Source: Ignavibacteria bacterium (GTDB taxonomy: Bacteria > Bacteroidota > Ignavibacteria > Kapaibacteriales > UBA2268). From it: 47,732 nt of DNA. The stretch is from contig JAOADV010000016.1 in NCBI GenBank assembly GCA_026417135.1, forward strand, positions 1 through 47,732, read 5' to 3'. Numbering within the stretch: position 1 is the stretch's first letter; each line of letters opens with the position of its first letter. Below are positions 924-40,900 of the stretch, in pieces. The translations under genes and the position numbers were made by a program. The notes beneath the pieces were generated by a model. That model had not been told where the DNA came from, did no database searches, and was given only the letters and a program-made list of their open reading frames with translations.

Positions 924-1916
924 ATGAGCCTTTGGTTGGTAAGAGCGGGAAGATATGATGAAAACGAACAACAAGCCCTTGACAATAATATTGTAACAAT
1001 TGCATGGAACGAGTTTGATGATTTATAACAAATAAAATCCAAAGAAGAATTAACTGAACTCTATATAAAACTGAATCCTGGTTCAAAAAAAAGGAAAGTA
1101 GTAAATGAAGTTGGACAAGTATGGAGATTCATTCGAGAAATTCAAAAAAATGACCTTGTAGCTCTCCCATTAAAGATGCAATCTGGGATTGCTATTGGTA
1201 AAGTAGAAAGCGATTATGAGTATAAGGAAATAAATCCAAACATAAAACACATCAGACACGTAAAATGGTTAAAAATAATTCCTAGATCTGCTTTCGACCA
1301 AGATATTCTCTATTCTCTTGGTGCATCTATGACAGTTTGCAAGATAGAAAGAAACGAAGCGGAAAATCGAATTAAGCAACTTCTTAAAGGGGAGATTGCA
1401 CCTATAAAAGAAGAAGTGCCCGAAAGTGAAGAAATTATTGATATCGAGGAATATGCTAAGGACCAAATCATCAAATACATTGATAAAAAATTTAAAGGGC
1501 ACAATTTAGCAAGATTGGTTAATGCAATTTTGAAAGCACAAGGATTTATTACCAAGGTTTCTCCACCCGGACCAGATGGAGGAGTGGATATTTTGGCTTC
1601 AGGAGGGACATTAGGCTTTGATAACCCCAAAATATGTGTGCAAGTCAAATCATCATCATCTCCGGTAGATGTAAAAATATTAAGAGACCTTAAAGGTACG
1701 ATGAGAGATGTAAAAGCCGAACAAGGACTATTAATTTCTTGGGCGGGTTTTAAAGACATAGTTGTTAGAGAAGCAAAAAATGATTTCTTCTTCATTCGCT
1801 TGTGGGACCAAGGTGACTTGCTTAATGAAATTTTCAGATATTATGACCGTTTTGACTACGAACTTAAGGCAGAACTGCCTTTGAAAAGGATTTGGGGACT
1901 AATCATTGAAGAATAA
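924..1916 (+). pseudogene. Mrr-type restriction endonuclease interrupted by an in-frame stop
   Basis: The full frame begins at ATG 924, eight bases after AGGAG at 911-915. It would encode about 330 residues but carries TAA at 1026-1028 (codon 35). The first 34 codons (MSLWLVRAGRYDENEQQALD) and the sequence just after the stop both match, as I remember it, the N-terminal domain common in Mrr-like restriction proteins, so the stop falls inside a conserved domain. The C-terminal half has the Mrr nuclease signature: GPDGGVDIL supplies the metal-binding Asp, followed by VQVKSSS with the family's Q-x-K version of PD-(D/E)xK. An internal ATG at 1176 leaves a 246-residue frame holding the whole nuclease domain but missing the N-terminal domain. 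Such enzymes cut modified DNA. I read it as a recent nonsense mutant. A truncated active nuclease from an internal start is possible. Confidence 0.8.
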
Positions 1917-1936
1917 AAGAATCGAAACAGAAGACC

Positions 1937-1962
1937 GTAGGGGCAATTCACGAATTGCCCCA
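1937..1962. repeat. short palindromic intergenic repeat, copy 1
   Basis: GGGGCAATTC at 1940-1949 and GAATTGCCCC at 1952-1961 form a perfect 10-bp inverted repeat around AC, preceded by GTA. A closely related copy lies at 2157-2184. It has no poly-T tract, so it is not a typical terminator. It resembles REP-type elements. Confidence 0.8.
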
Positions 1963-2088
1963 ACAAAGGATTGATATATCGCACCTACCAGCGGGAGTAT
2001 ATTTCGCAAGGTTTAAGAATTTTACAGAAAAATTTGTGGTAATTAGGTAATTATTTAAAACTTTTTTTCAATAATAATAAGGTGATTT

Positions 2089-2160
2089 ATGAAAAAATTA
2101 TTACTTGTTTTTTTTTGTAATTCTTACCCAAAATGTATTTACACAATGGCAAGAACGTAG
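2089..2160 (+). pseudogene. clipped 5' end of an exported-protein gene
   Basis: AAGGTG precedes an ATG at 2089 by a normal spacing. The codons that follow give MKKLLLVFF, a classic signal-peptide start, and then run into a tract of nine T. If one base of that tract is skipped, the reading continues as VILTQNVFTQWQER, the kind of sequence seen around a signal cleavage site. The frame then enters the palindromic repeat at 2157 and stops. No body of a secreted protein follows, because the next gene is the oppositely oriented carboxylase. I read this as the relic of a secreted-protein gene cut off by the repeat or by a rearrangement. Confidence 0.45.
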
Positions 2161-2184
2161 GGGCAATTCATAAATTGCCCTTAC
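2157..2184. repeat. short palindromic intergenic repeat, copy 2
   Basis: GTAGGGGCAATTC is followed by an imperfect reverse complement ending CCCTTAC, the same element as at 1937-1962. Its right edge overlaps the TAA stop codon (2181-2183, minus strand) of the carboxylase gene, so the repeat supplies that stop. Confidence 0.75.
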
Positions 2185-3788
2185 ATACGGAACACACCAA
2201 AATGATGTTCTGGAATAGGAGCGTTCAAAGCCATAGAAATTCCAAGAGCCAAAGCATTTCTTGTATCGAGAGGGTCGAGTATTCCGTCGTCCCAAAGTCT
2301 TGCAGTGCTGTAATATGGGCTGGCTTCGTCCTCATATTTTTTTATTATTGGTTCACGTATAGCATTAATCTCCTCCTCAGTTAAAGTCTTGCCTTGCGAT
2401 TCGAGTTGTTTTATTTTAACTGTTGCAAGCACGTCCGCAGCTTGTTCACCGCCCATAACAGAGATACGACCGTGGGGCCACATCCAAAGCAATCGTGGAT
2501 TATAACCACGTCCACACATTGCATAATTGCCAGCACCGTATGAACCGCCAACTATTACGGTAAATTTGGGGACATCTGCATTTGCAACTGCGTGGACCAA
2601 CTTGGCACCGTCTTTAGCAATACCACCGTGTTCATACTTTTTCCCTACTATAAATCCAGTTATGTTTTGAAGAAAAATAAGAGGTATTCTTCTTACTGCA
2701 CAAAGTTCGATAAAATGTGCTCCTTTTAAGCTTGATTCGGAGAAAAGAACTCCATTGTTTGCCAAAATCCCAACTGGATAACCCATTATCCTTGCAAAGC
2801 AAGTAACAAGAGTTGTCCCATAAAGTTCCTTAAATTCTTGAAACCGACTTCCATCGACAATTCGAGCAATGATTTCGCGAATATCGAAAGGAGTTCGAAT
2901 ATTTCTTGGCATAATTCCGTAAATCTCTTCGGGGTCGTAATATGGGTCTTCGGGTTCATCTCTTCCAATGTCGAATTTTTCGGCCCTCCCTAAATTTTCG
3001 ACAATATTTCTTGCTATTTGCAAGGCGTGTTCATCGTTTTGTGCGTAATGGTCCGAAACCCCAGAAATTTTACAATGGACATCGGCTCCGCCAAGTTCTT
3101 CGTCTGTAACGACTTCGCCAGTTGCTGCTTTGACAAGTGGGGGACCACCGATGAAGATAGTGGCTTGATTTCGGACCATAATTGTTTCGTCGCTCATCGC
3201 TGGAACGTAAGCGCCGCCGGCAGTACACGAGCCCATAACAACTGCTATTTGCGGTATGTTAAGGGCAGACATTCTTGCTTGGTTGTAGAAAATTCTACCA
3301 AAATGTTCTTTGTCTGGAAAAGTTTCGGCTTGATGCGGAAGAAAAATTCCGCCAGAATCTACCAAGTAAATGCAAGGTAATCTATTTTGAAGGGCAACTT
3401 CTTGGGCACGGACGTGTTTCTTGATTGTCATCGGGAAATAAGTCCCACCTTTGACGGTAGCGTCGTTTGCAATAATGAGACATTCACGCCCTTTAACTAC
3501 CCCAATGCCAGTTATTATTCCAGCCGATGGTGCTTCGTTTTCGTACATATCCCACGCAGCAAGAGCGGACAACTCTAAAAAAGGAGTGTTCGGGTCGCAA
3601 AGCTTTTTTATTCTATCTCGTGGTAGAAGCTTTCCGCGGCTAATGTGCTTTTCGCGGGCTTTTTCGGGTCCACCTTGTCGGACAAGTTCCAATCTTTGGC
3701 GAAGTTCTTCGACAAGCTTAATTGAATTTTCGAAATTTTCTTTATAATCAGGCGACTTTGTATTAATCCTTGTTTTGAACCTTTCCAT
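2181..3788 (-). CDS. mccB: methylcrotonyl-CoA carboxylase, carboxyltransferase (beta) subunit
   Basis: The 535-residue protein is the carboxyltransferase half of a biotin-dependent acyl-CoA carboxylase. Length and sequence favour 3-methylcrotonyl-CoA carboxylase of leucine breakdown over propionyl-CoA carboxylase. The N-terminal crotonase-like domain has [15 protein letters not shown] and [18 protein letters not shown]. The second half has [18 protein letters not shown] and [16 protein letters not shown], both typical of the MCC-beta type. Geranyl-CoA carboxylase beta is the main alternative. The biotin carboxylase/biotin carrier (alpha) subunit is not in the window and must be supplied from elsewhere. 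The gene is the last of a leftward run, five bases after the DUF6125 gene. Its stop codon lies in a palindromic repeat. The enzyme is cytoplasmic. Confidence 0.88.
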
Positions 3789-3793
3789 TTTTA

Positions 3794-4315
3794 TTACTCA
3801 TTGATTAATTCGAATTTCCACACACAAAAGAATTCAGGTTTTGATATATTTGGTGGACAAGAGACTGAAGTTGTTTTTATTCTTGTGTCGATTGTTTTGG
3901 CGAACAAAGAGTATTCAACCAAACCGACAGATTGGCAAGGAAAATCGGGCAAACCTTTGCGGCGTCGGGCTTCTTGAACTCGACAGGTTCTTACGAAATA
4001 AAGAAGAGAAGTTGGGCTTTCGTATTTCGAGAACTGCTCATTTAATGTTGAATATAAGCGAAAGTTTAAGGCAATACGCAAGCCTTCTAATCCGGGTTCG
4101 TCGGGAAGATTAAGAAATTCCTTAATCCTTTTGGCTTCGATTTTGGTGAAAGTTTCCCAAGCTTTAGTGTCGAAATGTATGGCTTTTTCGAGCCCTAACT
4201 CAGATTCAATCGCTAAAAACCAAGAACCGTCGTGAGCCAGCCAGTTCCTTGCATAAATTTTCAAAAGCTCATACAGCTCATCCTTCGATAAGTCCTCGAT
4301 TTTTTCAATCTCCAT
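3794..4315 (-). CDS. DUF6125 family protein
   Basis: This 173-residue soluble protein matches the pattern I remember for DUF6125: an N-terminal helical part with [20 protein letters not shown], then [18 protein letters not shown], and a Cys-containing tail ([14 protein letters not shown]). The family has no established function known to me. The spaced cysteines (in TCRVQ, FPCQS, SCPP and FFCVW) could bind a metal or cofactor. Its ATG overlaps the stop of the mutase gene by one base (TAATG), so the two are probably translationally coupled and act in the same pathway. A role as accessory protein or chaperone for the B12-dependent mutase, or as a separate small enzyme acting on acyl-CoA, is inference from position only. 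Confidence 0.7.
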
Positions 4316-7300
4316 TACATTCCTCGCCTATACTTCCCGCCAATTTCGTAAAGCATATGAATTATTTCACCCATAGTGCAGTGTTCGACAGTATTCAAAA
4401 GTTCTTCGAATATGTTCCCATTTTTCAACGCAACATCTCTTAATCGGTCGAGTGCTTCTCGTTTCTTGTCCGCGTGCAATTCTTTAAACTTTGCGACTTG
4501 TTCAAGTCGCTCCTTTTTCTCCTCGAAAGTAGCACGCGTAATCTTCATATTGTCGTAATAATTAATAGGATTTTCATTGATAAATGTATTTACGCCGACT
4601 ATAGGATATTCGCCACTTTCTTTTAAAGACTCGTAGTAAAGGGATTGTTCTTGAATCTTAGAGCGTTGATATTGTGTTTCCATTGCCCCAAGCACTCCAC
4701 CGCGGCGGGAAAGAGCAAGGAACTCGTCGAGAACAGCTTCCTCGACCAAATCTGTTATCTCTTCGATGATAAATGAACCTTGATTCGGATTTTCGTTTTT
4801 GAGTACTCCGAATTCCTTTGAAAGTATCATTTGAATAGCCATAGCACGGCGGACAGATTCTTCGGTAGGGGTAGTTATTGCTTCGTCGTAAGAATTAGTA
4901 TGCAAGGAGTTACAATTGTCGTACATTGCCAATAATCCTTGCAAGGTTGTTCGAATATCGTTAAAATCAATTTCTTGGGCGTGGAGACTGCGTCCAGAAG
5001 TTTGTATATGATATTTCAATTTCTGGCTTCTTTCGTTTGCCCCATAGACATACTTCATAGCAATAGCCCAAATTCGGCGAGCGACGCGACCAATAACAGA
5101 GTATTCTGGGTCCATACCATTAGAAAAGAAGAATGAAAGGTTTGGGGCGAAATCATCGACTGGAATTCCGCGATTAAGGAAATATTCTACATACGTGAAT
5201 CCGTTTGCAAGAGTGAAAGCAAGCTGAGTTATCGGGTTTGCACCAGCTTCTGCAATATGATAGCCACTAATACTTAAAGAATAGTAATTGCGTATATTGT
5301 GTTTCGACAAATATTCTTGAACATCTCCAATAAGCTTCATAGCAAAGTTAATCGAAAAAATACAGGTATTTTGGCCTTGGTCCTCTTTGAGCATATCGGC
5401 TTGAACGGTGCCGCGTAGTTTACGAAAAGTTGATATTTTTAATGCTTCTTTCTCTTCGGTAGTAAGTTCAACACCTTGTTGCTTTAACTTTTCGAGTTCT
5501 CGTTTGTATGCAGTTATAAAGTAGAAGGCAACCATTATCGGAGCAGGTGCGTTAATCGTCATAGATACAGATGTTAGTGGGTCGGTCTGGTCGAATCCTT
5601 TTAGAAGTTCGTCCATATCTTCAAGTGTGCAAACTGATACTCCGCTTTCTCCGATTTTCCCAAAGATATCTGGGTCTGGTGCTGGGTCTTCTCCGTAAAG
5701 GGTAACTCCGTCGAAAGCGACAGAAAGGCGTTTGGCAATGTCATTTTTTGTTAAGTAATGAAAACGCTTGTTTGTTCGCGCCGGACCACCTTCGCCGGCA
5801 AATTGACGTTTGGGGTCTTCTGTAACTCTTTTGAAAGGGAAAACGCCAGCAGTAAAAGGAAAGTAACCAGGCAAATTTTCTAAGTAAAGAAATTTTAAAA
5901 GATTTCCCCAGTCATCGAATTTAGGTAAGGCTATTTTGGCAATTTCTGTTCCACATATTGATTTACTAAAAAGTTCTATTTCTAATTCTTGATTTTGAAT
6001 TTTGTACTTTATTTTCTCTTGTTGGTATTGTTTTTTCAATTCAGGCCATAAAAGTAGTAAGTCCTTCGAGTCGCTTGTAAGTTTGTCCCATTTTTGATTG
6101 TAAAGTTCAGTTAACAATTTCTGGGTTTCGCCGTCTTTTTTTTCTTCTTTTAGCAAATCTAAGGTTTGTTTTAAAGAAAATACTTCGGTAGCAAGTTTAG
6201 CTTGCTCTTTGGCATTTTCTTTGTATTTACGAACCGCTTCGGCTATTTCGGCAAGATAATTTATTCGCTTGTGGCTTATTAACCCAAAGTCGAACACCAA
6301 GTCTGTCGGAAGTAAATCAATAACCTCATCTTTAACACCGTAGTTGCCATTTCTTCTATCTTTGAGAACTTTTAATAGAGCTTTGAAAAGTTTATTAACA
6401 CCAGGATTATTAAACTGGTTGCTACTACAAGCAAAGATAGGCAGGTCGAGAGTTTCGAGTGGCACCCCGCGTGGAACTTTCAACTGGTGTGTTCTAATAT
6501 AATGTATAATTACTTCACGCAAAGCGTCTTCGGAGCCAATCTTTTCGAACTTATTTATAACGATGAAATCGGCAAGGTCGAGCATATCGATTTTTTCGAG
6601 TTGACTGGGTGCTCCGAATTCAGCTGTCATAACATAAATAGAAAACTCGGCTAAGGATGTAACTTGGCTATCTCCTTGCCCGATACCGGGGGTTTCCACA
6701 AAAATCAAGTCGAAGCCACAAGTTTTGAGTAAGTCAATAGAGTCGCGAACGGAACGACCAAGGTCGCTTCCGCTATTGCGTGTTGCAAAGCTTCGGAAAT
6801 ATACTCTTGGGTCGTAAATATGATTATATCTAATTCGGTCTCCAAGAAGGGCACCACCAGTTGAACTCTTTGTTGGGTCGCTCGCTAAAATAGCAATTTT
6901 TGTATTTGGGGCATAAGCCAAAAATCTCCCTACAATTTCATCGACGACGGAACTTTTACCACAGCCACCCGGTCCGGTTACTCCAACAACAAGGGATTTC
7001 CCCTTATCGAATTTTCTAATTCTTTGCCTTATAAGTTCGGCATCCGAAAGTGCTGGCAATTTCTCTTCGATAAAAGTAATTTGCTTAGAAATTGAGCGAT
7101 GATTTTCTGTATTATTTTCTTCGAGCATTTTATCTGCGAGATTATCCAGCCATTTGGCTTCGACGCGAGGTTTATTGTCGATAATTCTTTTAATAATATC
7201 GTCGGCAATTCCATTTATGCCCATTCTTTGCCCGTCAACTGCGTGGTAAAGTTTGGTTACTCCGTATTCTTCGAGAGCTTGTATCTCGGAAGGTAAGATG

Positions 7301-7581
7301 ACCCCTCCGCCACCGCCAAAAATTTGTTTTTCTTCGGCTCCAACTTCACGAAGTTGGTCGACAAGGAAACGGAAATACTCATTATGCCCACCTTGGTAAG
7401 AACTGATTAAGAGAGCATCGACATCCTCTTGGATGGCGACTGTAACAATTTCTCGGACCGAACGATTGTGTCCGAGATGAATAACTTCGGCACCTCGTCG
7501 TTGTAATAACCTACGGAAGAGGTTAACAGAAACATCGTGTCCATCGAACAATGCTGTGGCTGTTAGGACTTTTATGTTCAT
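4315..7581 (-). CDS. icmF: fused isobutyryl-CoA mutase with built-in GTPase chaperone
   Basis: The 1088-residue protein shows the full IcmF order. An N-terminal cobalamin-binding domain has LFDGHD with the axial histidine near residue 15 and a GGGGGVI loop. A MeaI-type G-protein domain has the P-loop GVTGPGGCGKSS near residue 200 and a G4-like NKFE near 340. A linker of about 150 residues follows, then the mutase TIM barrel from about 560 (YFPFTAGVFPFKR, AGEGGPARTNKR, SISGYHIAEAGANPI). IcmF converts isobutyryl-CoA and n-butyryl-CoA, and some also isomerise isovaleryl-CoA and pivalyl-CoA. The Phe in FTAGVFPF is the isobutyryl-type residue where methylmalonyl-CoA mutase has Tyr. It sits between an acyl-CoA dehydrogenase (30 bases upstream) and DUF6125 (one-base overlap). 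The cofactor is adenosylcobalamin and the protein is cytoplasmic. The call is secure, but substrate preference is not readable from sequence. Confidence 0.93.
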   Translation of the reverse strand: MNIKVLTATALFDGHDVSVNLFRRLLQRRGAEVIHLGHNRSVREIVTVAIQEDVDALLISSYQGGHNEYFRFLVDQLREVGAEEKQIFGGGGGVILPSEIQALEEYGVTKLYHAVDGQRMGINGIADDIIKRIIDNKPRVEAKWLDNLADKMLEENNTENHRSISKQITFIEEKLPALSDAELIRQRIRKFDKGKSLVVGVTGPGGCGKSSVVDEIVGRFLAYAPNTKIAILASDPTKSSTGGALLGDRIRYNHIYDPRVYFRSFATRNSGSDLGRSVRDSIDLLKTCGFDLIFVETPGIGQGDSQVTSLAEFSIYVMTAEFGAPSQLEKIDMLDLADFIVINKFEKIGSEDALREVIIHYIRTHQLKVPRGVPLETLDLPIFACSSNQFNNPGVNKLFKALLKVLKDRRNGNYGVKDEVIDLLPTDLVFDFGLISHKRINYLAEIAEAVRKYKENAKEQAKLATEVFSLKQTLDLLKEEKKDGETQKLLTELYNQKWDKLTSDSKDLLLLWPELKKQYQQEKIKYKIQNQELEIELFSKSICGTEIAKIALPKFDDWGNLLKFLYLENLPGYFPFTAGVFPFKRVTEDPKRQFAGEGGPARTNKRFHYLTKNDIAKRLSVAFDGVTLYGEDPAPDPDIFGKIGESGVSVCTLEDMDELLKGFDQTDPLTSVSMTINAPAPIMVAFYFITAYKRELEKLKQQGVELTTEEKEALKISTFRKLRGTVQADMLKEDQGQNTCIFSINFAMKLIGDVQEYLSKHNIRNYYSLSISGYHIAEAGANPITQLAFTLANGFTYVEYFLNRGIPVDDFAPNLSFFFSNGMDPEYSVIGRVARRIWAIAMKYVYGANERSQKLKYHIQTSGRSLHAQEIDFNDIRTTLQGLLAMYDNCNSLHTNSYDEAITTPTEESVRRAMAIQMILSKEFGVLKNENPNQGSFIIEEITDLVEEAVLDEFLALSRRGGVLGAMETQYQRSKIQEQSLYYESLKESGEYPIVGVNTFINENPINYYDNMKITRATFEEKKERLEQVAKFKELHADKKREALDRLRDVALKNGNIFEELLNTVEHCTMGEIIHMLYEIGGKYRRGM

Positions 7582-7611
7582 ATTATAATGCTATTACATA
7601 GTTGGACAAAT

Positions 7612-8751
7612 TTATTTTAGCAACTGTCTTGAAATAACGAGCCGCTGGATTTCGCTTGTTCCTTCATAAATTTCAGTGATTTTTGCATCGCGAAAGTATC
7701 TTTCGACGTTAAAATCTTCGGTATAACCATAGCCACCATGTATTTGTATTGCTTTTCTTGCAGCGTCGACAGCAAGTTCCGATGATTTTAGTTTAGCCAT
7801 CGCTGCTTCGGCTGAGTATGGAAGACCACGGTCCTTCAAAACAGACGCTCGCCAAGTTAGCAACCAAGCACTTTCGTATTCCATCCACATATCTGCAAGC
7901 ATCCATTGAATTGCTTGAAAGTTAGCAATTGGTTGCTCGAACTGAACCCTTTCCTTAGCATATTTTACAGAGTCTTCTATACAAGCTCGCGTTATTCCAA
8001 GGGCTTGGGCAGCAATACCAAGTCTACCTCCATCGAGAGTTACCATAGCGACTTTGAACCCCTGATTTAATTCGCCAAGCAAGTTTTCTTCGGGAACTTC
8101 GACATTTTCCAAAATTATTTCTGTCGTCGAAGAGGAGCGAATACCAAGTTTTCTTTCAACTTTACCTATACGATATCCGGGCATATCTTTTTCGACAATA
8201 AAAGCAGAAACGCCTTTGGTTTTCTTTCCAGGGTCAGTCGAAGCAATAAGCACGAAAATATCTGCTTCGGCTCCATTAGTAGCAAAAAGTTTGGAACCAT
8301 TCAAGACCCATTTGTTTCCAGATTTGACCGCTGTCGTTCTTGTGTTTCCAGCGTCGGAACCTGCTTGTGCTTCGGTTAGCGAAAAGCTCCCTATTTTCCG
8401 ACCAGAAAGCAAATCTGGAAGATATTTCATCCTCTGCTCCTCCGTTCCAAATCGGTAAATTGGGTCGCAAACTAAAGAAGAATGGGCCGAAATAATAACA
8501 CCAGTCGAGGCACACCACCTCGAAATTTCTTCGATAGCAAGGAAATACGATACAAAATCCATCCCAGCACCACCATATTCAACTGGGTATGCAATCCCCA
8601 TCAAACCGAGTTCCCCAGCTTCGCGAATGATTTCCCACGGAAATCGGTGATTTCGTTCGTTTTCGGCAGCAACCGGGGCTATTTTCTCCTTTGCAAACTT
8701 TGCAACCATCTCCCGCAACATCTTTTGCTCTTCTGTCAATAGATAATCCAT
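7612..8751 (-). CDS. acyl-CoA dehydrogenase (short/branched-chain type)
   Basis: This flavoenzyme of about 379 residues introduces an alpha-beta double bond into an acyl-CoA and passes electrons to ETF. The three-domain order is intact: N-terminal helices, a middle beta domain with SLTEAQAGSDAGNT and WVLNGSKLFATNG, and a C-terminal domain with KERVQFEQPIANFQAIQ, QIHGGYGY and the catalytic-base motif EIYEGTSEIQR. The start chosen is ATG at 8751, preceded by GGGAGAG. A TTG four codons upstream is less likely. It is the first gene of the leftward set and lies 30 bases from icmF, which points to butyryl-, isobutyryl- or isovaleryl-CoA as substrate. The exact chain preference is inferred from context only. 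Confidence 0.9.
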   Translation of the reverse strand: MDYLLTEEQKMLREMVAKFAKEKIAPVAAENERNHRFPWEIIREAGELGLMGIAYPVEYGGAGMDFVSYFLAIEEISRWCASTGVIISAHSSLVCDPIYRFGTEEQRMKYLPDLLSGRKIGSFSLTEAQAGSDAGNTRTTAVKSGNKWVLNGSKLFATNGAEADIFVLIASTDPGKKTKGVSAFIVEKDMPGYRIGKVERKLGIRSSSTTEIILENVEVPEENLLGELNQGFKVAMVTLDGGRLGIAAQALGITRACIEDSVKYAKERVQFEQPIANFQAIQWMLADMWMEYESAWLLTWRASVLKDRGLPYSAEAAMAKLKSSELAVDAARKAIQIHGGYGYTEDFNVERYFRDAKITEIYEGTSEIQRLVISRQLLK

Positions 8752-8880
8752 AAACTCTCCCAATAAACATCAAAAAATTTTGAACAAATAAAAAAAAATT
8801 ACTAATATTACATTTTCAATATATAAAAAAATTTGTTGTTGAATAAATGAATTTTCATTTTTTCTTTTATCGGATTTGTT
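8752..8880. promoter_or_regulatory. divergent control region between the two acyl-CoA operons
   Basis: This AT-rich gap of 129 bases separates two outward-facing acyl-CoA dehydrogenase genes, so promoters for both directions must lie here. I cannot assign a clear -33/-7 pair or an operator palindrome by eye. Confidence 0.5.
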
Positions 8881-10041
8881 ATGAGTAATAAGTTTAATCT
8901 TACCGAAGAACAAATAATTTTGAAGGAAACTGTCCGAAAATTTGCAGAAACAGAAATTAAACCAAAGATACGAGAACTGGACGAAAACGAAGAATTTTCT
9001 TACGAACTTACTGAAAAATTAGCAAAGGAAGGTTACCTTGGTTGTTTAATCCCTGATGAATATGGTGGTGCAAACCTTGATTATTTGTCGTATATCATAA
9101 TTGTCGAAGAAATTGCTCGTATCGATTCTTCGCAAGCTGCTACCATTGCTGCACACAATTCGCTTGGGGCTGCGCCAATTGTTTATTTTGGAAATGAACA
9201 GCAAAAGCAGAAGTATTTGCCTAAATTGGCTGAAGGGTATCTTTGGGGCTTTGGTTTGACCGAACCCGAAGCTGGATCCGACGCCGGCAATACGAAAACC
9301 ACAGCAATCAAAAATGGGGACAAATGGATTTTGAATGGCACGAAAATCTTTATTACAAATGCTTCGACTGATGTAACGCTTGGTTCTACTATTCTTGCAG
9401 TTTCTGGGACTTTGCCCGACGGTAGAAAGGAATACTCTTGCTTTTTAGTTGAAAATGGGACTCCGGGCTTTACTGCTCGCTCGATGAAACACAAAATGAT
9501 GTGGCGCTCCTCGAATACAAGTGAATTGATACTCGAAGATGTTGTAGTTGGAGAAGAAAATCTTTTGGGTAAACGAGGCGATGGTTTCAAACAAATGCTT
9601 AAAACTTTGGACTACGGTCGACTTTCTATCGCTGCGATAGGACTTGGTTTGGCACAAGGCGCATTCGAATATGCTTTGAATTATGCTAAAACAAGAAAGA
9701 CCTTTGGAACTCCAATCTCTAAGCATCAAGCAATTGCTTTCAAGCTTGCAGATATGCAAATGAACATCGATTTGGCAAGGACCTATCTTTATCAAACTTG
9801 TCGATTGGCGAATACATCCGCGAAGATTACAATGGAATCTGCTATTGCCAAGTTATATTGTTCCGAAGTTGCCCGCCTTTGTGCAAACAATTGCGTTCAA
9901 ATTCTTGGCGGCTACGGCTTGATGAAAGAGTATGATGCAGAACGATACTATCGCGACCAGAAAATCTTGGAAATAGGCGAAGGAACAAGCGAAATTCAGC
10001 GACTGGTAATTGCTCGAAATATAGGATGTTTCGATGTTTAA
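8881..10041 (+). CDS. acyl-CoA dehydrogenase, second paralogue
   Basis: The protein has 386 residues and the same fold as the divergent neighbour but is clearly a different subfamily member. It has GLTEPEAGSDAGNT and WILNGTKIFITNAS in the middle domain, RKTFGTPISKHQAIAFKLADM in the C-terminal domain, and the catalytic motif ILEIGEGTSEIQRLVI near the end. It starts the rightward set (dehydrogenase, unknown protein, HMG-CoA synthase, thiolase, DUF35). Having two dehydrogenases back to back suggests two steps or two substrates, for example straight-chain butyryl-CoA versus isovaleryl- or isobutyryl-CoA. This assignment is inference. Confidence 0.9.
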   Translation: MSNKFNLTEEQIILKETVRKFAETEIKPKIRELDENEEFSYELTEKLAKEGYLGCLIPDEYGGANLDYLSYIIIVEEIARIDSSQAATIAAHNSLGAAPIVYFGNEQQKQKYLPKLAEGYLWGFGLTEPEAGSDAGNTKTTAIKNGDKWILNGTKIFITNASTDVTLGSTILAVSGTLPDGRKEYSCFLVENGTPGFTARSMKHKMMWRSSNTSELILEDVVVGEENLLGKRGDGFKQMLKTLDYGRLSIAAIGLGLAQGAFEYALNYAKTRKTFGTPISKHQAIAFKLADMQMNIDLARTYLYQTCRLANTSAKITMESAIAKLYCSEVARLCANNCVQILGGYGLMKEYDAERYYRDQKILEIGEGTSEIQRLVIARNIGCFDV

Positions 10042-10052
10042 GGAAAAAGCAA

Positions 10053-10763
10053 ATGGCAATTGATAAATCTTTTATCGAAAGCCTTCCATCCAATCCTTTG
10101 CTTGCCGAAACTAAAATTATCGGTGAATTCAATAGAATCTTGGAAAATGCAAATAAAGACTTTACTCGCGAAGCGTTTTACGAGGATTTTCTCAACATCT
10201 TCAGTTTCTACCAAGTTTACGCTGCAAAACATTCCTTAAATATTAATTTTCCACCATTAACCAACGATAAGAAAATCAATACCGGGATAATCATCAACTT
10301 TTTCGAAAATCGCCAGAAGGAAACACAAATTGAATTAGAAGATTTCCTTTCTTTTCAAAAATTGATTGAAAAGAAAAGTACTTTTGAATCCCTTCTCCGC
10401 GAAGAAATTACTTATAAGCTTAGCGATAAGGATTTAAACACACTTTATCATAAATTCGATTCGATAATCGATTTGGTTAACGAAAATTTCGATATAAAAA
10501 GAAATTTAAAATTGCGTTTAATCGGTTATATTGGTACGCTAAAAAAGGAATTGAAACCCGAAATGTCGAATTTTGATAAATTTTGGTCTCTCGTTAGCTA
10601 CATTGGTTTGTTGTATGGTTTGTATGGCGACAAAGTTATTAAAATAATCGATAGGATTAAAGATGTGCTAAATTTTATTTGGAAAGTACAAGCGACAGCC
10701 GAAGGCTTGCCTATAACAAATCCAGTTATCACAATTATATTTAAGGAAATTAAACCAACATAA
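10053..10763 (+). CDS. hypothetical protein, mostly helical
   Basis: The protein has 236 residues and I do not recognise it. The start chosen is ATG 10053, 11 bases after the dehydrogenase stop. An in-frame upstream ATG at 10026 would overlap that gene. It is rich in Lys, Glu, Asn, Phe and Ile, with long predicted helices, no signal peptide and no cysteines. A mildly hydrophobic stretch near the C-terminus (FWSLVSYIGLLYGLYGDKVI) might be a membrane-associated helix. Base composition matches its neighbours. It sits between the dehydrogenase and the HMG-CoA synthase genes with short gaps, so it is probably co-transcribed, but whether it takes part in the pathway is unknown. Confidence 0.75.
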   Translation: MAIDKSFIESLPSNPLLAETKIIGEFNRILENANKDFTREAFYEDFLNIFSFYQVYAAKHSLNINFPPLTNDKKINTGIIINFFENRQKETQIELEDFLSFQKLIEKKSTFESLLREEITYKLSDKDLNTLYHKFDSIIDLVNENFDIKRNLKLRLIGYIGTLKKELKPEMSNFDKFWSLVSYIGLLYGLYGDKVIKIIDRIKDVLNFIWKVQATAEGLPITNPVITIIFKEIKPT

Positions 10764-10790
10764 TATGTTTTACTAACTTTAGGTGATTTT

Positions 10791-11843
10791 ATGATTGGTA
10801 TAGTTGGATATGGAAGTTATGTTCCAATGTATCGTATCAAAAGTTCAACGATTGCTAAACAATGGGGGAGCGACCCGGCGGCAATCGAAAAGGGGCTTAT
10901 GCTCATCGAAAAAACAGTTCCTTATTTCGACGAGGATACAATAACAATATCTGTTGCTGCGGCAAAGAATGCACTTTTGCGAGCACAAATCGACCCCCAA
11001 CGGATTGGAGCAGTTTATATTGGTTCAGAATCGCATCCTTATGCTGTAAAACCTTCTGGAACTGTGCTTATTGATGCCTTGGGAATTGGACCACACGTTC
11101 ACGTTGCGGATTTTGAATTTGCTTGCAAAGCGGGGACAGAGGCAATGTATGTTGCGTATAGCCACGTAAAGAGCGGCGAGATGGAATTTGCTATGGGGAT
11201 TGGCTCCGATACTTCGCAAGGTGCACCGGGCGATGCTCTCGAATATAGCGCCTCGGCCGGAGGCTCTGCATTCATCTTTGGAAAGGAAAATGTTGTAGCC
11301 GAAGTTCTTTTTACCCATTCTTTTACTTCCGATACTGCTGATTTTTGGCGACGAGAATACCAAACTTATCCACGACACGGTGGTCGATTTACCGGAGAAC
11401 CAGCATATTTCAAGCATATTCTTGGTTGTGGGAGAGCATTGCTTGAAAAATCTGGGATGAAGCCCGAAGAATTTCAATTCGCTGTATTTCATATGCCCAA
11501 TGGTAGATTCCCCTTAAAAGTTGGAAAGGACCTTGGATTCAAACAAGAACAAATGTCCGAAGGTTGGATAGTCAATATAATGGGAAACACATATTCTGGC
11601 TCTTCTATAACTGGTTTGACTGCTATTCTTGATGTGGCAAAACCTGGCGATAAAATATTTCTTGTTTCTTTTGGCTCTGGGGCTGGAAGCGATGGTTTCA
11701 TTTTCCAAGTTACCGAAAGAATAAACGAGGTTCGGGACCTTGCCCCGAAAACTCGTGAAATGTTAAATAATCCAAATAAGATATATCTTGATTATGGGCA
11801 ATATGCCGCTATTAGAAAGAAAATACATTTTAATGAGTATTAA
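10791..11843 (+). CDS. archaeal-type hydroxymethylglutaryl-CoA synthase
   Basis: The 350-residue protein condenses acetyl-CoA with acetoacetyl-CoA to HMG-CoA. It is the short archaeal form, not the eukaryotic or Gram-positive form. The thiolase-fold active site is complete: a Glu in IGSES (about residue 80), the acyl-accepting Cys112 in FEFACKAGTEAM, and His234 in FHMPNGRFP. DTSQGAPGDALEYSA is characteristic of the archaeal group. AGGTGA precedes the ATG. It is followed 19 bases later by the partner thiolase and then the DUF35 protein, the gene order known for the archaeal HMGCS-thiolase-DUF35 complex that channels acetoacetyl-CoA. In archaea the product feeds the mevalonate pathway. Here, next to leucine-type genes, the direction and purpose are open. 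Confidence 0.87.
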   Translation: MIGIVGYGSYVPMYRIKSSTIAKQWGSDPAAIEKGLMLIEKTVPYFDEDTITISVAAAKNALLRAQIDPQRIGAVYIGSESHPYAVKPSGTVLIDALGIGPHVHVADFEFACKAGTEAMYVAYSHVKSGEMEFAMGIGSDTSQGAPGDALEYSASAGGSAFIFGKENVVAEVLFTHSFTSDTADFWRREYQTYPRHGGRFTGEPAYFKHILGCGRALLEKSGMKPEEFQFAVFHMPNGRFPLKVGKDLGFKQEQMSEGWIVNIMGNTYSGSSITGLTAILDVAKPGDKIFLVSFGSGAGSDGFIFQVTERINEVRDLAPKTREMLNNPNKIYLDYGQYAAIRKKIHFNEY

Positions 11844-11861
11844 CAATTTCGAGGTGTATAA

Positions 11862-13010
11862 ATGCGTGATGTTGCAATCATTGGAGTAGGTCTTACGCAA
11901 TTCGGCGAAAATTGGGACCAAAGTATAAGGGACTTGTTCGCCGAAGCGGCTTTAAAGGCAATGGAAAGTGCAAAAATTGAAAAGGTGGACTCTCTTTACG
12001 TTGGGTCGATGTCCAGCGGATTATACGCTTACCAAGAACATTTGGGCTCGTTGATGGCAGATTATGTTGGCCAGATTGGTGTTCCAGCTGTCCGAATCGA
12101 ATCGGCTTGTTCTTCTGGTGGCCAAGCTGTGAGAATGGGGTTCTTGGATGTTGCCTCTGGTATGCACGATATCGTACTTGTCGGTGGTGTCGAAAAGATG
12201 TGGGATGTCGAAGACGGGACTTTTGTCCTTGCGACTGCTGCGGACCAAGAATATGAAGTTTACAATGGGGTTACTTTTCCCGGTCTTTATGCAATGATGG
12301 CTCGTGTTTATATGGAAAGATATGGGCTTACTCGGGAGGAATTGGCACAAGTTCCAATAAAGAATCACAAGCACGGGGTGAATAATCCTTACGCTCAATT
12401 TCCATTCGAAATCGATTTAAAAGCTGTATTAAGTTCTTCTATGGTTGCCGACCCTCTTCGACTTTTAGATTGTTCTCCAATCACCGACGGAGCTGCTTGT
12501 GTTATACTTTGTCCACTCGAACGAGCAAAAGAGTTTACGGATAAGTTTGTCAAAATTCGGGCTGTTGGTTCGGCAAGCGGTCCTATTGCCTTCCACGACC
12601 ACAAAGATTTAACCAGATTGGATGCTGTGAAACTTGCTGGCGAAAGAGCGTATAAAATGGCAGGGCTAAAACCCGAAGATATTGATTTTGTTGAAGTTCA
12701 CGATTGTTTCTCGATTGCAGAAATTTTAGTTGCCGAAGAGCTTGGTTTCTTCGATTATGGGACCGCTGGAAAGGCTATCGCCGAAGGTCAAGCTACCTAC
12801 GGTGGTAAAATTGTTATTAACCCAAGCGGTGGGTTAAAAGCAAAAGGTCATCCAGTTGGAGCAACTGGCGTTGCACAAATTGTCGAAGCATATCTGCAAT
12901 TAACTGGCCAAGCGGGCAAAAGGCAAGTTTCTAACGCTCGCTTTGGGATGACCCAAAATATGGGTGGTTCTGGTGGTAGTTGTGTTGTTCACATTTTGGA
13001 GGCAATGTAA
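11862..13010 (+). CDS. acetoacetyl-CoA thiolase, archaeal/SCP2-type
   Basis: This 382-residue thiolase catalyses the reversible condensation of two acetyl-CoA into acetoacetyl-CoA. The nucleophilic Cys83 lies in [12 protein letters not shown]. His280 is in [11 protein letters not shown], and His330 is in [15 protein letters not shown]. It belongs to the group lacking the covering-loop Cys motif of classical FadA thiolases, which is the kind that pairs with DUF35 proteins and archaeal HMG-CoA synthase. GAGGTG lies upstream of the ATG. The next gene starts one base after its TAA. I infer that it forms a complex with the flanking proteins and hands acetoacetyl-CoA to the synthase, or receives it in the degradative direction. 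Confidence 0.88.
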
Positions 13011-13011
13011 T

Positions 13012-13404
13012 ATGGCAATAAGTCAAAGATATACAAGGGAGATACCACATCGCTACCGCTTGGAAGCTCAAAAATTTCCAAGCGGATTTGTTTCTTTACC
13101 TCGTCGTTATGTCGACCCAATCTCTGGTAGCCGAGAATTTGAAAAAATCAGACTTTCGGGGAAGGGCACCATTTTGTCGTACACTATAATTTATGTTTCT
13201 GCGGACCAATTTAAACTTCTTACTCCATACGCTGTTGCAGTTATCGAAACTGACGAAGGTGCTCGTGTAACAGCAATGATGACAGATACAAATTTCGAAG
13301 ATTTAAAAATTGGGGCAAGGGTAGAATTTGTTTTTCGCAAAATTATGGAAGAAGGTGCAAGCGGGATAATCAACTACGGTTACAAGGCAAAAATCATCAA
13401 GTAA
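13012..13404 (+). CDS. DUF35 OB-fold protein with a degenerate zinc ribbon
   Basis: The 130-residue protein begins at ATG 13012, one base after the thiolase stop. A longer in-frame start inside the thiolase gene is unlikely. The C-terminal OB-fold part is recognisable (REFEKIRLSGKGTILSYTII, then LTPYAVAVIETDEGARVTAM). Canonical members carry an N-terminal rubredoxin-like zinc ribbon with two CxxC pairs. The matching stretch here (about residues 19-40) has none, with DPIS at the position where CPxC is expected. The protein contains no Cys at all. In archaea the DUF35 protein bridges thiolase and HMG-CoA synthase and its ribbon helps hold CoA. The gene position says the same partnership, but metal binding must be lost. 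Confidence 0.82.
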   Translation: MAISQRYTREIPHRYRLEAQKFPSGFVSLPRRYVDPISGSREFEKIRLSGKGTILSYTIIYVSADQFKLLTPYAVAVIETDEGARVTAMMTDTNFEDLKIGARVEFVFRKIMEEGASGIINYGYKAKIIK

Positions 13405-13508
13405 TTTTAATAAATCAATAAGTTGGGAAGGGTTCGGAGGTTACTTGTCCAAATTCTTTGGGTTCTTCGTGCATATATTTCAAGATAAAACCGATGAAAT
13501 TATTTGGT

Positions 13509-13527
13509 ATTGTTAGATTCTAACAAT
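13509..13527. repeat. small palindrome in the convergent gap
   Basis: ATTGTTAGA and TCTAACAAT form a 9-bp inverted repeat around a single T in the gap between the convergent DUF35 and prenyltransferase genes. No T tract follows, so a role as terminator or protein site is uncertain. Confidence 0.35.
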
Positions 13528-13658
13528 GCTCAGATATATTATCGATTTTCATCATTTTGTTTGAAAATAAGTATAAGAAGGTTCGAGCTTTAACATTCAT
13601 AATTGAATGCTATTTTCTCTTTTTGGTTGGTGATTTAACGAAGGAAATTATAGAAAGG

Positions 13659-14675
13659 TCATCCCAAATTTAGCAAACCAGAATACTTAAAAACAAGTTC
13701 GATAATTAAAGCAAGTAGAAAGATGGTGCCAAACCTTCTATTGTACATAAATGCAAAGTAAACCAAATACAGGGGCCAAGCGGTTTCGTAGCCTTTTGGG
13801 GCTTCGGTTGGACGTGGCTTCGAAAAAACTTTGATTGAGGGTATAAGTTTTGGAACTGCTGCCAACGAAAGTGCCATAATTGGGGTAAAATAATTTATAG
13901 TTATAAGATAAGCAATCAAAAGATATTGAATTATCCACAAAATTATCACTAAAAATCGCGATGCTGTTTCGCCAATAATAACAGGTAAGGTATTAATTCT
14001 TTTTTCTTTGTCCACCTTCATCTTGTCGGTATGTTTGCCAAGAAGTACAGTTGTCGGACCAATCGAATAAACCAGACTTACAAAAATCACTTCCCAACTC
14101 CAGGTACCACCGGTAACCACAAAATAAGTCCCACCTACCATTAAAGGTCCCCATACGATAAGAACGGTAACTTCGCCAAGCCCAATATACTTAAGGGGCC
14201 AAGTGTAGAACGCGATGAAGAAGATACCAGCCAAAATAAGATAAATTGTCGTTGTAGGAGTAGTCAAAGCCAAATAAATTCCACACGAAAGTGCGATAGC
14301 GAAACTTCCAAGGATATAACCCCACATTTCTTTTTCTGTCATAAGTCCGTGTTCTAAAGCTTGCGGACCATAAAGATTTCGGTAATAGTTATCCTTGTCG
14401 ACCCCTTTTTTTGAATCTGTCCAATCGTTAACTAAATTGTTAGTTGCGTGAGCGAAGATAAGCCCAAAGAAGGAGAGTAAGAATGGTAGAAGATTAAATT
14501 TTCCATCTTTTAATGCTAAAAGACCTCCATACAAAGCCGACATTGCTGTCATAACAAAAACAGCTCCACGCGCAGAGATAAGCCATCTCGAAACGATGTC
14601 GAGTTGTTTCCATTCTGCCAAAGTAACTTTTGGGATTATTCGGAGCGCCTTGCCCCACATTGCAATATTGACCAT
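13659..14675 (-). CDS. UbiA-family prenyltransferase, MenA-like
   Basis: This polytopic membrane protein of about 338 residues has roughly eight or nine hydrophobic helices. The two Asp-rich prenyl diphosphate/magnesium motifs are present: NLVNDWTDSKKGVD in the first half and GKHTDKMKVDKEKRINTLPV in the second. The likely job is prenylation of dihydroxynaphthoate for menaquinone, but other UbiA substrates cannot be excluded. The longest frame starts with TTG at 14723. ATG at 14675 is the more credible start, and ATG 14660 is also possible. The gene converges with the acyl-CoA operon. No other menaquinone gene is nearby. Confidence 0.8.
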   Translation of the reverse strand: MVNIAMWGKALRIIPKVTLAEWKQLDIVSRWLISARGAVFVMTAMSALYGGLLALKDGKFNLLPFLLSFFGLIFAHATNNLVNDWTDSKKGVDKDNYYRNLYGPQALEHGLMTEKEMWGYILGSFAIALSCGIYLALTTPTTTIYLILAGIFFIAFYTWPLKYIGLGEVTVLIVWGPLMVGGTYFVVTGGTWSWEVIFVSLVYSIGPTTVLLGKHTDKMKVDKEKRINTLPVIIGETASRFLVIILWIIQYLLIAYLITINYFTPIMALSLAAVPKLIPSIKVFSKPRPTEAPKGYETAWPLYLVYFAFMYNRRFGTIFLLALIIELVFKYSGLLNLG

Positions 14676-38944: not shown

Positions 38945-39943
38945 TTATTCAAGATTAATTTCTAATTGACAATTTTCGTTTCTTAATAATTTATCATTTA
39001 TTGGTTTTTTATTATGGGAGGGTGTTATCTTATTGTTTGATAGAACAATTTCTTGAAATTCAAGATGTTTAATTGTTTTTGGTAAAATAAATGCATTTTG
39101 GATTTTTTCCCAATCCTTGTCCCTAATCGTTAGTATTTTATTTAAAAAATTACTTACATAGCACTCATTAATTAGCGATGGCTTCGTATGTTGTAATTTT
39201 GCTTTAGAAATTTCCACGTATTTGGGGTCAATTTCAATTCCAATGAATCTTCTTCCAAGTTTTTTAGCTGCAACAGCAGTTGTCCCTGTCCCCAAAAAAG
39301 GGTCAAGGACGATATCACCTTCGTCGCTACTCATCAATATTAAACGTTCAAGTAGATGTATAGGTAGTTGGCAAGGATGTTCATCTCGTCGCTTTTTGTG
39401 TCTTATTCGGTGTATATCGGTCCAAACATCTGAAAGTAGAGGTCCGAAATGATGCATCTGGTTTTTCTTTCCTCCATAATCTTGTAATATATATTTGCAA
39501 TTTCTACATCTTTTATGGAGCATTCTGATATCATAAAACTTAAATTTATCCGATTTTACGTAGTATAAAATGCCATAATGATTTGGAAGGAGGGTTCTTC
39601 CGAGAGGTGAACCCATTGCATCCCAAACAATCCAATGGCGAAATATAGCTATTTCATTAAGAAAGTTGCCAAAATATATTAACCATTTAGGGATGTTATG
39701 GACAAAAATTGAACCTGTCGGCTTGGTGATACGCACCATTTCGCTAAGCCAGTTCTTACACCAGGAAAGATAAACCTCGACTTCACGCTCATCATAATAG
39801 TTGTTGTATTTCTTTTTCAAATTAAAAGGAGGGTCTGCAAAAGTTATATCAATACTATTGTCTGGAATTTGGCTCATAATTTTCAGACAATCGCCTTGAA
39901 TAACTTTATTAACTAGCTCATTTATAATAATTTTATCCTGCAT
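38945..39943 (-). CDS. type II DNA methyltransferase, beta-class amino-methylase
   Basis: The protein has 332 residues. Catalytic motif IV ADPPFNLKKKY lies near the N-terminus (D37-P-P-F40), and the AdoMet-binding motif DPFLGTGTTAVAAKKLGRRF lies near residue 220. That order is the beta class of N6-adenine or N4-cytosine methylases. Between them is the target-recognition region with a CRNCKYILQDYGGKK element that may bind zinc. About 80 extra residues follow the AdoMet motif. The gene overlaps the 3' end of the restriction gene by 11 bases, so the pair was an R-M operon. The methylase frame is intact. I cannot read its target site. Confidence 0.9.
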   Translation of the reverse strand: MQDKIIINELVNKVIQGDCLKIMSQIPDNSIDITFADPPFNLKKKYNNYYDEREVEVYLSWCKNWLSEMVRITKPTGSIFVHNIPKWLIYFGNFLNEIAIFRHWIVWDAMGSPLGRTLLPNHYGILYYVKSDKFKFYDIRMLHKRCRNCKYILQDYGGKKNQMHHFGPLLSDVWTDIHRIRHKKRRDEHPCQLPIHLLERLILMSSDEGDIVLDPFLGTGTTAVAAKKLGRRFIGIEIDPKYVEISKAKLQHTKPSLINECYVSNFLNKILTIRDKDWEKIQNAFILPKTIKHLEFQEIVLSNNKITPSHNKKPINDKLLRNENCQLEINLE

Positions 39944-40900
39944 TAAAAACTTCCATTAAAAGTTTTTCAAAATTTTTTAATTCCTCATTATGAAATGTAA
40001 ATACATAGTCATATGCTTCAACCATTCGTTTTAAATCGGCTTTTCTAACATACCATCCAATGCCATCAATGAAACCAACAAAAACTACCTTAGGATAATT
40101 TTTATTTATGTATTCAGCTACTGTTTTCTCCGTTTTTGCTTTATCACCCATCCCAGAAGCGGTAGTTACTGAATATGAACACTCAATAATCAATTTTGGG
40201 GAAGTTTTATTTGGAACAATAAAATCCATCGTTCTCGGAATATCACCCACTTTTGAAATTCCGAATTTTCCTTTTTCAAATTTTAAATTTTGAGAATTTA
40301 AAATGTTTTCAATTAAAACCTCAGGATTTCCTTTTCTTAGAGCTTTATAAGAGCCTTTCGTTTTATATCTTACAATAGTATCTATTAAAGATTCTGGGGT
40401 AAAGGTGAATTTATTTATGTCAAGTTTTTTAAATTCAAACAATGGTAAAGTGTCTTTAATAACCTTTATCGTCGCTCCTTGGAAAAAAATGTTAACGATA
40501 CCTTCGGCGAATTTTTTGTTTGACCTTAGCAAATGTTTAATTTTATTTAAGTCCCACTCTGTTTGAAAATCTTCTTTCGCCCAGCTGCTTTTATTGAAAA
40601 GTTTCGACAAATCTTCATCATCATACACTCTGATGAATGTGATTAGTCTTTGAAAACTTTCTTTTGAAAAGCCAGTTATTGTTAGTATAGCATCCAGTCC
40701 ATCGGGGACGGATGTTATATGCTCGACCACAACGGGTTTTTTTAGTCCTTTTGTTTCGATTTTATTTTTAAAAGAAATATATTCTGAGCAATCGATGAAA
40801 TACTTGTTTCGAAAGATTCTTCGAATTCATTATTGGAAAAATAAAATGTATTTTTTGTAATTACAGTATTAAATTTTTCTTCAGTCGATTGGTAAACCAT
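39933..40900 (-). pseudogene. type II restriction endonuclease gene with a 5' frameshift
   Basis: A 265-residue frame begins with GTG at 40730. The protein-like sequence clearly continues upstream in the same frame to a stop at 40827-40829 (RNKYFIDCSEYISFKNK then IETKGLKKPVVVEHIT), with no ATG, GTG or TTG in that stretch. A second frame starts with ATG at 40900 (MVYQSTEEKFNTV ... NNEFEESFE) and ends at TAA 40742. Joining the two by one base shift between about 40829 and 40790 restores a protein of about 320 residues. The C-terminal part has MDFIVPN and KLIIECSYSVTTASG, a possible PD-(D/E)xK-like core. It is followed by a methylase with an 11-base overlap. I read it as a disabled nuclease; a single sequencing error is the alternative. 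Confidence 0.75.

Follow-up and report, generated by a model that had tools for sequence, protein, structure and literature searches.

We consider it fairly likely that a divergent nine-gene cluster in the genome of an Ignavibacteria bacterium is a module for the degradation of branched-chain acyl-CoA esters, in which a complex of archaeal type takes the place of 3-hydroxy-3-methylglutaryl-CoA (HMG-CoA) lyase and works in the cleavage direction. The cluster occupies positions 2181 to 13404 of contig JAOADV010000016.1 (assembly GCA_026417135.1), whose whole length of 47,732 nucleotides is hereafter called the window. Its right arm encodes HMG-CoA synthase (HMGS), acetoacetyl-CoA thiolase and a DUF35 protein, together called the triad below; besides these, the cluster encodes the β-subunit of a carboxylase of methylcrotonyl-CoA carboxylase (MCC) type, two acyl-CoA dehydrogenases (ACD1 and ACD2) and the mutase IcmF. 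Leucine and also valine are probably the amino acids from which its substrates derive. An earlier note, made from the sequence alone, had placed nine genes here, and all of them were found, with identities established by profile search:

2181..3788, minus strand: MCC-type acyl-CoA carboxylase, carboxyltransferase (β) subunit (PF01039, 510 bits)
3794..4315, minus strand: DUF6125 protein (PF19620, 234 bits)
4315..7581, minus strand: IcmF, fused isobutyryl-CoA mutase/GTPase (NF045497, 1578 bits, cut-off 1500)
7612..8751, minus strand: ACD1, short-chain/butyryl-CoA type (Pfam acyl-CoA dehydrogenase domains)
8752..8880, no strand: divergent intergenic region of 129 bases, between the ATG at 8751 (minus strand) and the ATG at 8881 (plus strand)
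8881..10041, plus strand: ACD2, probably for the isovaleryl-CoA step by context (Pfam domains)
10053..10763, plus strand: mostly helical protein without Pfam or NCBIfam match, with relatives in the four closest loci only
10791..11843, plus strand: archaeal-type HMGS (TIGR00748, 500 bits, cut-off 353; PRK04262, 518 bits, cut-off 244)
11862..13010, plus strand: acetoacetyl-CoA thiolase of the complex (PRK06064, 542 bits, cut-off 420)
13012..13404, plus strand: DUF35 OB-fold subunit without any cysteine (PF01796, 68 bits, cut-off 27)

That the cluster contains neither a lyase nor a hydratase, as the earlier note had stated, agrees with the profiles of these nine genes and of ten further proteins of the window (part of its open reading frames). 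The same note had proposed to search the genome for HMG-CoA lyase, HMG-CoA reductase and the methylerythritol phosphate (MEP) pathway. The host assembly (2.24 Mb in 63 contigs, the window being contig C7; Kapabacteria-like, 98.15% complete, 0.15% contaminated, not closed) gave no match to the HMG-CoA lyase family (HMGL, PF00682), the control being found in 14/14 genomes; both HMGL types of its relatives match this family (82 and 154 bits). HMG-CoA reductase (PF00368) had no match in the host either (control found in 5/14 genomes), and the MEP enzyme GcpE/IspG (PF04551) is present (498 bits). Isoprenoids of the host are thus probably made by the MEP route, which would leave HMG-CoA without a mevalonate outlet; its usual lyase is absent as well. 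A full leucine pathway with lyase, combined with a full mevalonate pathway and an unconserved neighbourhood, which the earlier note had named as evidence to the contrary, was looked for and did not occur. Furthermore, ketol-acid reductoisomerase (KARI; IlvC, PF01450) had no match in any of five genomes of family f1 (the host, G000, and G159, G210, G246 and G337). The usual route to branched-chain amino acids is therefore probably missing from this family, and the supply of these amino acids probably comes from outside. The remaining enzymes of the pathway have candidates elsewhere in the host genome: one real enoyl-CoA hydratase (a further PF00378 match proved to be a peptidase S49) and two full-length biotin carboxylases, one of which (AccC) lies beside a biotin-carrier gene, the other (505 aa) being unlinked.

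The linkage between triad and MCC is conserved in other bacteria. HMGS was searched for in a collection of 84,980 species, each represented by a single genome, and the best 80 loci of 565 confirmed relatives (62–89% identity) were analysed; their contigs are labelled as Kapabacteria, Ignavibacteria, Krumholzibacteriia, Gemmatimonadota, Aminicenantes, Zixibacteria, Coatesbacteria, Cloacimonadota, Calditrichia, Acidobacteria and others. The thiolase was found in 77/80 and DUF35 in 70/80 loci; among the ten loci without thiolase or DUF35, only L038 and L084 retain 10 kb downstream. MCC-β (counted at 55% identity or more) is encoded in 32/80 loci, and in 28/53 of those with at least 4.5 kb downstream of HMGS. 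In 23/80 loci MCC-β is accompanied by a hydratase of methylglutaconyl-CoA type, hereafter the operon-type hydratase (best profile gamma-carboxygeranoyl-CoA hydratase, 276 bits, under the cut-off of 426), in 21/80 by a biotin carboxylase in addition to this hydratase, and in 19/80 by a biotin carrier on top of both. In Aminicenantes (L041, L049, L059) the order is HMGS, thiolase, DUF35, MCC-β, hydratase, biotin carboxylase and carrier; neighbouring matches overlap slightly or are separated by up to 286 bases. Judged from its gene content, this putative operon is the lower leucine (liu) pathway in which the triad stands instead of the lyase. The window type is divergent (L007–L011); the nine-gene order is kept in L007–L010 (the L010 contig begins inside MCC-β), as a check of gene order proposed in the earlier note revealed, and in L011 except that the genes for DUF6125 and the helical protein are both missing and a hydratase gene adjoins that of MCC-β. 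Other arrangements have MCC-β right after DUF35 (L026), spaced genes (L082) or MCC genes on the opposite strand (L083). MCC linkage was found in several gene arrangements and in both deep HMGS subclades (26/42 and 7/45 rows) of a tree with 87 of 95 collected rows (eight partial or duplicate copies dropped), on which the linkage label changes 12 times versus a shuffled mean of 26.6. The deepest split of this tree fits a division in the HMGS histidine motif, which is HMPNG in the window subclade (53 rows) versus HQPNG in the Aminicenantes-type subclade (42 rows), the latter being shared with the archaeal 6ESQ chain.

In one relative the triad is replaced by a lyase-family gene. We surveyed 296 genomes of the phylum, each at least 90% complete, for MCC-β of the window clade (at least 68% identity; the common MCC-β-like proteins of ~50% were left out) and found it in five of them, namely the host, G210, G159, G246 and G238. 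HMGS occurs in 11/296 genomes, including the host and G210 and not G159, G246 and G238. A second type of HMGL protein (157–213 bits, below the model cut-off), the only match in 70/296 genomes, is encoded in G159 and G246, members of the same family with an MCC-β of 75–76% identity and no HMGS match; in G246 it co-occurs with the first type. The second-type gene of G246 (L121) begins 19 bases after an ACD2 relative (70% identity) ends with its stop codon. The position behind ACD2, which is taken in the host by the genes for the helical protein, HMGS, thiolase and DUF35, is thus taken in G246 by a lyase-family gene. In G159 the second-type gene adjoins a urocanase gene. Among the 11 HMGS genomes the second type was found in none and the first type in three (G105, G210, G222).

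For 50 of the 80 loci, the genomes (their completeness is not given) were searched for HMG-CoA lyase (NF004283) and HMG-CoA reductase. Lyase matches exceeded the cut-off in 10/50 genomes, and any match at E 0.001 was found in 26/50; reductase matched in 9/50 (five strong matches of 303–370 bits, four weak ones of 49–60 bits) and had no match in 41/50. The genomes differ by cluster type: the five with the divergent cluster (G001–G005) all have an HMGL protein over the cut-off and no reductase (0/5). None of the 26 other MCC-linked genomes has a lyase over the cut-off (eight have weak matches, none above 60 bits), and reductase occurs in five of them; for the 19 loci without MCC-β in reach, HMGL was found in five and reductase in four. 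Of these 26 MCC-linked genomes, which are not of the divergent type, 22 contain IspG, so that the missing lyase is not accounted for by assembly gaps alone (note that G007 and G210 are the same genome, both entered in the IspG search and one in the KARI search).

In the sister genomes G001–G005 the HMGL gene adjoins genes for an isocitrate/homoisocitrate dehydrogenase-like protein (IDH-like) and a class III CoA-transferase; in G001–G004 LeuC- and LeuD-like aconitase genes are found there as well, and the G005 contig ends at this point. The full set is also present in G006, G019, G105, G222 and G230, and a CoA-transferase gene lies beside the HMGL gene in 9/10 of the over-cut-off genomes (L087–L090, L139, L105, L125, L106 and L104; not G046). 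This neighbourhood presumably resembles the setting of R-citramalyl-CoA lyase and CoA-transferase in Chloroflexus, and by analogy it suggests that the sister-genome HMGL is not the leucine lyase. A protein of the same type without those neighbours is encoded in G337, which belongs to the same family and has no match for MCC-β or HMGS. The operon as such (IDH-like protein, HMGL, class III CoA-transferase, LeuC- and LeuD-like proteins) is conserved in L087–L090, L105, L128, L129, L137 and L037, and its HMGL is absent from the host. In L037, on a Gemmatimonas contig, the IDH-like/HMGL/CoA-transferase operon, which is citramalyl-CoA-like, lies ~5 kb from the triad; this is the only one of the 80 HMGS loci with an HMGL-like gene.

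The genes of the triad encode the same three subunits as the archaeal complex; they are adjacent and have kept the catalytic motifs. The best PDB matches by sequence are 6esq_I for HMGS (418 bits), 6esq_A for the thiolase (406 bits) and 6esq_E for DUF35 (85 bits). The motif of the catalytic cysteine of HMGS, FEFACKA, is present in 80/80 related loci, and the thiolase cysteine of E..C.SG and the HDCF motif in 72/72 matches of at least 340 columns (a pattern for the GHP motif proved too narrow, with 25/72 matches, and was not used). The DUF35 protein of the window differs in that a search for the zinc-ribbon cysteines revealed no cysteine at all. Counted anywhere in the match, DUF35 has 0–2 cysteines in 10/12 of the loci L007–L018 and at least four in 55/58 others; the zinc ribbon thus seems to have been lost in the L007–L018 group. 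The window copy also differs from the archaeal complex in its company, i.e., MCC-β, the acyl-CoA dehydrogenases and IcmF, and in a host that has IspG and no HMG-CoA reductase.

The following route would account for these data. Isovaleryl-CoA would be oxidized to 3-methylcrotonyl-CoA by ACD2 and carboxylated to 3-methylglutaconyl-CoA by MCC, whose β-subunit is encoded here and whose biotin carboxylase would be encoded elsewhere in the genome; an enoyl-CoA hydratase, likewise encoded elsewhere, would form HMG-CoA. The synthase operating in reverse would cleave HMG-CoA to acetoacetyl-CoA and acetyl-CoA, and the thiolase would convert acetoacetyl-CoA to acetyl-CoA, resulting in three acetyl-CoA in total. 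Isobutyryl-CoA derived from valine would be rearranged by IcmF to butyryl-CoA, which could enter ordinary β-oxidation. According to PMC12329534, thiolase and synthase of the archaeal complex share a CoA-binding site and acetoacetyl-CoA is not released. If the bacterial proteins form such a complex, thiolysis of channelled acetoacetyl-CoA could pull the unfavourable reversal of the synthase. No free acetoacetate would then arise that needs re-activation, and one ATP equivalent per leucine could be saved.

The earlier note had regarded the preference of the synthase for HMG-CoA formation as an argument against such a reversal. This argument applies to the synthase alone, and the net reaction coupled to the thiolase is roughly estimated to be near equilibrium. 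Standard values are −26 kJ/mol for thiolysis and −20 to −35 kJ/mol for the synthase reaction. With these values and assumed concentrations, net cleavage was estimated at −22 to +17 kJ/mol, being negative in 7/8 cases in which acetyl-CoA/CoA was set to 1 or 0.1. Cleavage is therefore not excluded thermodynamically, and the estimate shows no more than that.

Several observations weigh against the triad as a substitute for the lyase. The HMG-CoA synthase reaction is classically treated as irreversible. The sole enoyl-CoA hydratase of the host is only 28% identical to the operon-type hydratase, and there is no clear methylglutaconyl-CoA hydratase; its unlinked biotin carboxylase is 47–50% identical to subunits of MCC operons versus 52% to the host's own AccC. 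The nearest solved chain of MCC-β is labelled propionyl-CoA carboxylase (9tps), and both ACD1 and ACD2 resemble short-chain dehydrogenases and not the classical isovaleryl-CoA dehydrogenase. Furthermore, 48/80 loci show no MCC-β, partly on short contigs, and neither do 25/53 of those with at least 4.5 kb downstream. The sister genomes G001–G005 possess an HMGL-family protein over the cut-off together with the same cluster; it possibly acts on HMG-CoA, and its role is ambiguous. Besides the triad, G046 (L103) has an HMGL-family protein that exceeds the cut-off (342 bits) and lacks the neighbours described above. The absence of the second HMGL type from all 11 HMGS genomes is weak evidence (a simple draw, which takes no account of relatedness, gives a P of about 0.05). 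The G238 operon consists of the genes for MCC-β, hydratase, biotin carboxylase, carrier, AtuA and ACD2, with no HMGS or lyase match at the thresholds used. Finally, IspG has no match in G010, G017, G027, G030 and G039, five of the nine genomes with reductase.

The latter genomes bear on the reading preferred in the earlier note, in which the triad supplies HMG-CoA to a mevalonate pathway and merely lies beside acyl-CoA genes. It is homologous to the archaeal complex known from that pathway, and mevalonate supply may well be its function in some reductase genomes without IspG, including the MCC-linked G027 and G030; we do not claim one role for the triad in all genomes. In the host, lacking HMG-CoA reductase and possessing IspG, a mevalonate role is practically excluded, and with the 41/50 triad genomes without reductase match we regard this reading as very improbable for the cluster. 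Chance adjacency of two unrelated operons, for which the two divergently transcribed arms and the loci without MCC-β could be adduced, is hardly credible: it is contradicted by conservation, with MCC linkage in both deep HMGS subclades and with triad, MCC-β, hydratase and biotin carboxylase on one strand in 8/11 of the MCC-linked loci laid out (L039, L041, L049, L053, L059, L062, L071, L075). It is unlikely, too, that leucine-derived HMG-CoA is cleaved by another enzyme (e.g., AtuA, or a lyase missed in an assembly that is 98% complete and not closed) and that the triad serves some other purpose. In Ignavibacteria, AtuA (PF07287) comes after the triad in the loci L130, L131, L133 and L134, and it is part of the G238 operon (L127), where HMGS and lyase were not found, and the sister genomes have their HMGL-family protein. 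However, AtuA occurs in 8/138 loci and in 0/32 MCC-linked triad loci (the host genome was not searched for AtuA), the host has no HMGL-family or CitE-like lyase, and the 21 loci mentioned above join the triad to MCC, hydratase and biotin carboxylase. AtuA may represent a third solution to the HMG-CoA step. In Ignavibacteria it is accompanied behind the triad by the AtuA ferredoxin-like protein.

The same enzymes could also work in the synthetic direction, from three acetyl-CoA to HMG-CoA. Dehydration, decarboxylation by a reversed MCC and reduction would then yield isovaleryl-CoA as a precursor of iso-branched fatty acids or even of leucine, comparable to a route of myxobacteria. The known archaeal complex runs in this direction, the host can make no leucine by the usual route (it has no PF00682 protein, i.e., no 2-isopropylmalate synthase, and no KARI), and a gene of the 2-oxoacid:ferredoxin oxidoreductase type is present (L092). 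On the other hand, a biotin-dependent carboxylase would have to act as a decarboxylase, and MCC, hydratase, acyl-CoA dehydrogenases and IcmF are together typical of catabolism; a lyase-family gene occupies the same position in G246, and KARI is present in 7/26 MCC-linked genomes, i.e., the missing branched-chain route is not general to the module. We therefore consider synthesis about as doubtful as cleavage by another enzyme. More doubtful still is a reversible carbon shuttle, in which the same bacteria, if amply supplied with amino acids, would degrade leucine to three acetyl-CoA, and in which the pathway would also run backwards to isovaleryl-CoA, even to leucine, without 2-isopropylmalate synthase or KARI, the MCC step conserving or spending ATP. 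The triad as a stand-in for the lyase, raised first but not preferred in the earlier note, is thus favoured by the linkage, the missing lyase and the swap in G246, and cleavage is its probable direction.

The proposed pathway is a variant of a known one and would give a new role to a complex that is already known. The myxobacterial alternative isovaleryl-CoA route (MvaS, LiuC, AibABC) runs in the synthetic direction and uses a dedicated decarboxylase instead of MCC. It has in common with the window an HMG-CoA synthase tied to the isovaleryl-CoA and methylglutaconyl-CoA steps outside the mevalonate pathway; the HMGS of the window differs in belonging to the archaeal family, with only 109 bits (cut-off 360) to TIGR01835, which we take to be the bacterial MvaS kind. 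With the pathway of leucine and isovalerate utilisation, whose genes are given as liuR, A, B, C, D and E in PMC9636800, the cluster shares MCC-β and an acyl-CoA dehydrogenase, and the operons of other phyla share the hydratase and biotin carboxylase as well. In the triad operons LiuE (HMG-CoA lyase) is missing, with the triad in its place, and biotin carboxylase and biotin carrier are two proteins instead of one carboxylase α-subunit. That an unrelated enzyme can replace the classical lyase of leucine breakdown has a precedent in Mycobacterium tuberculosis, where Rv2498c is a CitE-like (R)-HMG-CoA lyase (PMC6689899). Rv2498c differs from the triad in belonging to the CitE/HpcH family; a host lyase of this kind was considered and rejected, as the sole PF03328 match is weak and is pyruvate kinase. 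Phrase matching in the open-licence part of PubMed Central (no preprints and few subscription papers) found no paper describing the replacement of the lyase by the triad.

If the proposed function is correct, the textbook last step of leucine breakdown changes for Kapabacteria, Aminicenantes, Zixibacteria, Coatesbacteria and other uncultured bacteria, and a complex known from the mevalonate pathway works in the opposite direction. For annotation this means that an archaeal-type HMGS in such genomes need not imply mevalonate. Provided that no acetoacetate is released, the one ATP equivalent saved per leucine would be relevant to energy-limited cells.

As to the other proteins of the cluster, MCC-β gave its best PDB match with 9tps (807 bits), compared with 663–779 bits for chains labelled as MCC and 281 bits or less for 1vrg and other propionyl-CoA carboxylase β chains; its identity to the adjacent MCC-β in most triad operons of other phyla is 69–77%. 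Named chains among the best PDB matches of ACD1 include short-chain and butyryl-CoA dehydrogenases. ACD2 is of short-chain type by sequence, and its probable role in the isovaleryl-CoA step follows from gene context; a relative of 60% identity is encoded inside the MCC operon of G238. The best PDB match of IcmF is 4xc6 (1196 bits). The AlphaFold model of DUF6125 (mean pLDDT 76) resembles phenol-sensor domains and TRAPP-like folds weakly in Foldseek, with a best E of 1.9e-3, and the protein is perhaps a small-molecule-binding partner of IcmF. The helical protein encoded at 10053–10763 is 67–74% identical across L007–L010 and unmatched in other loci; its model (mean pLDDT 83, pTM 0.52) has no PDB match at E 0.001.

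The length of the spacer, given as 129 bases in the earlier note, is exact, with ACD1 starting from the ATG at 8751; its role as a shared control region is unconfirmed. A search of 8752–8880 for a shared regulatory element found none (repeats are mostly A/T-run matches), and promoter-like matches in 1900–14000 numbered 27 versus 27.1 expected from shuffled sequence, i.e., no excess. Elsewhere in the window, a gene for an Mrr-type nuclease (1176–1916) adjoins the MCC-β gene, and a DNA methylase and a DpnII/BanI-like restriction enzyme are encoded at 38945–40730.

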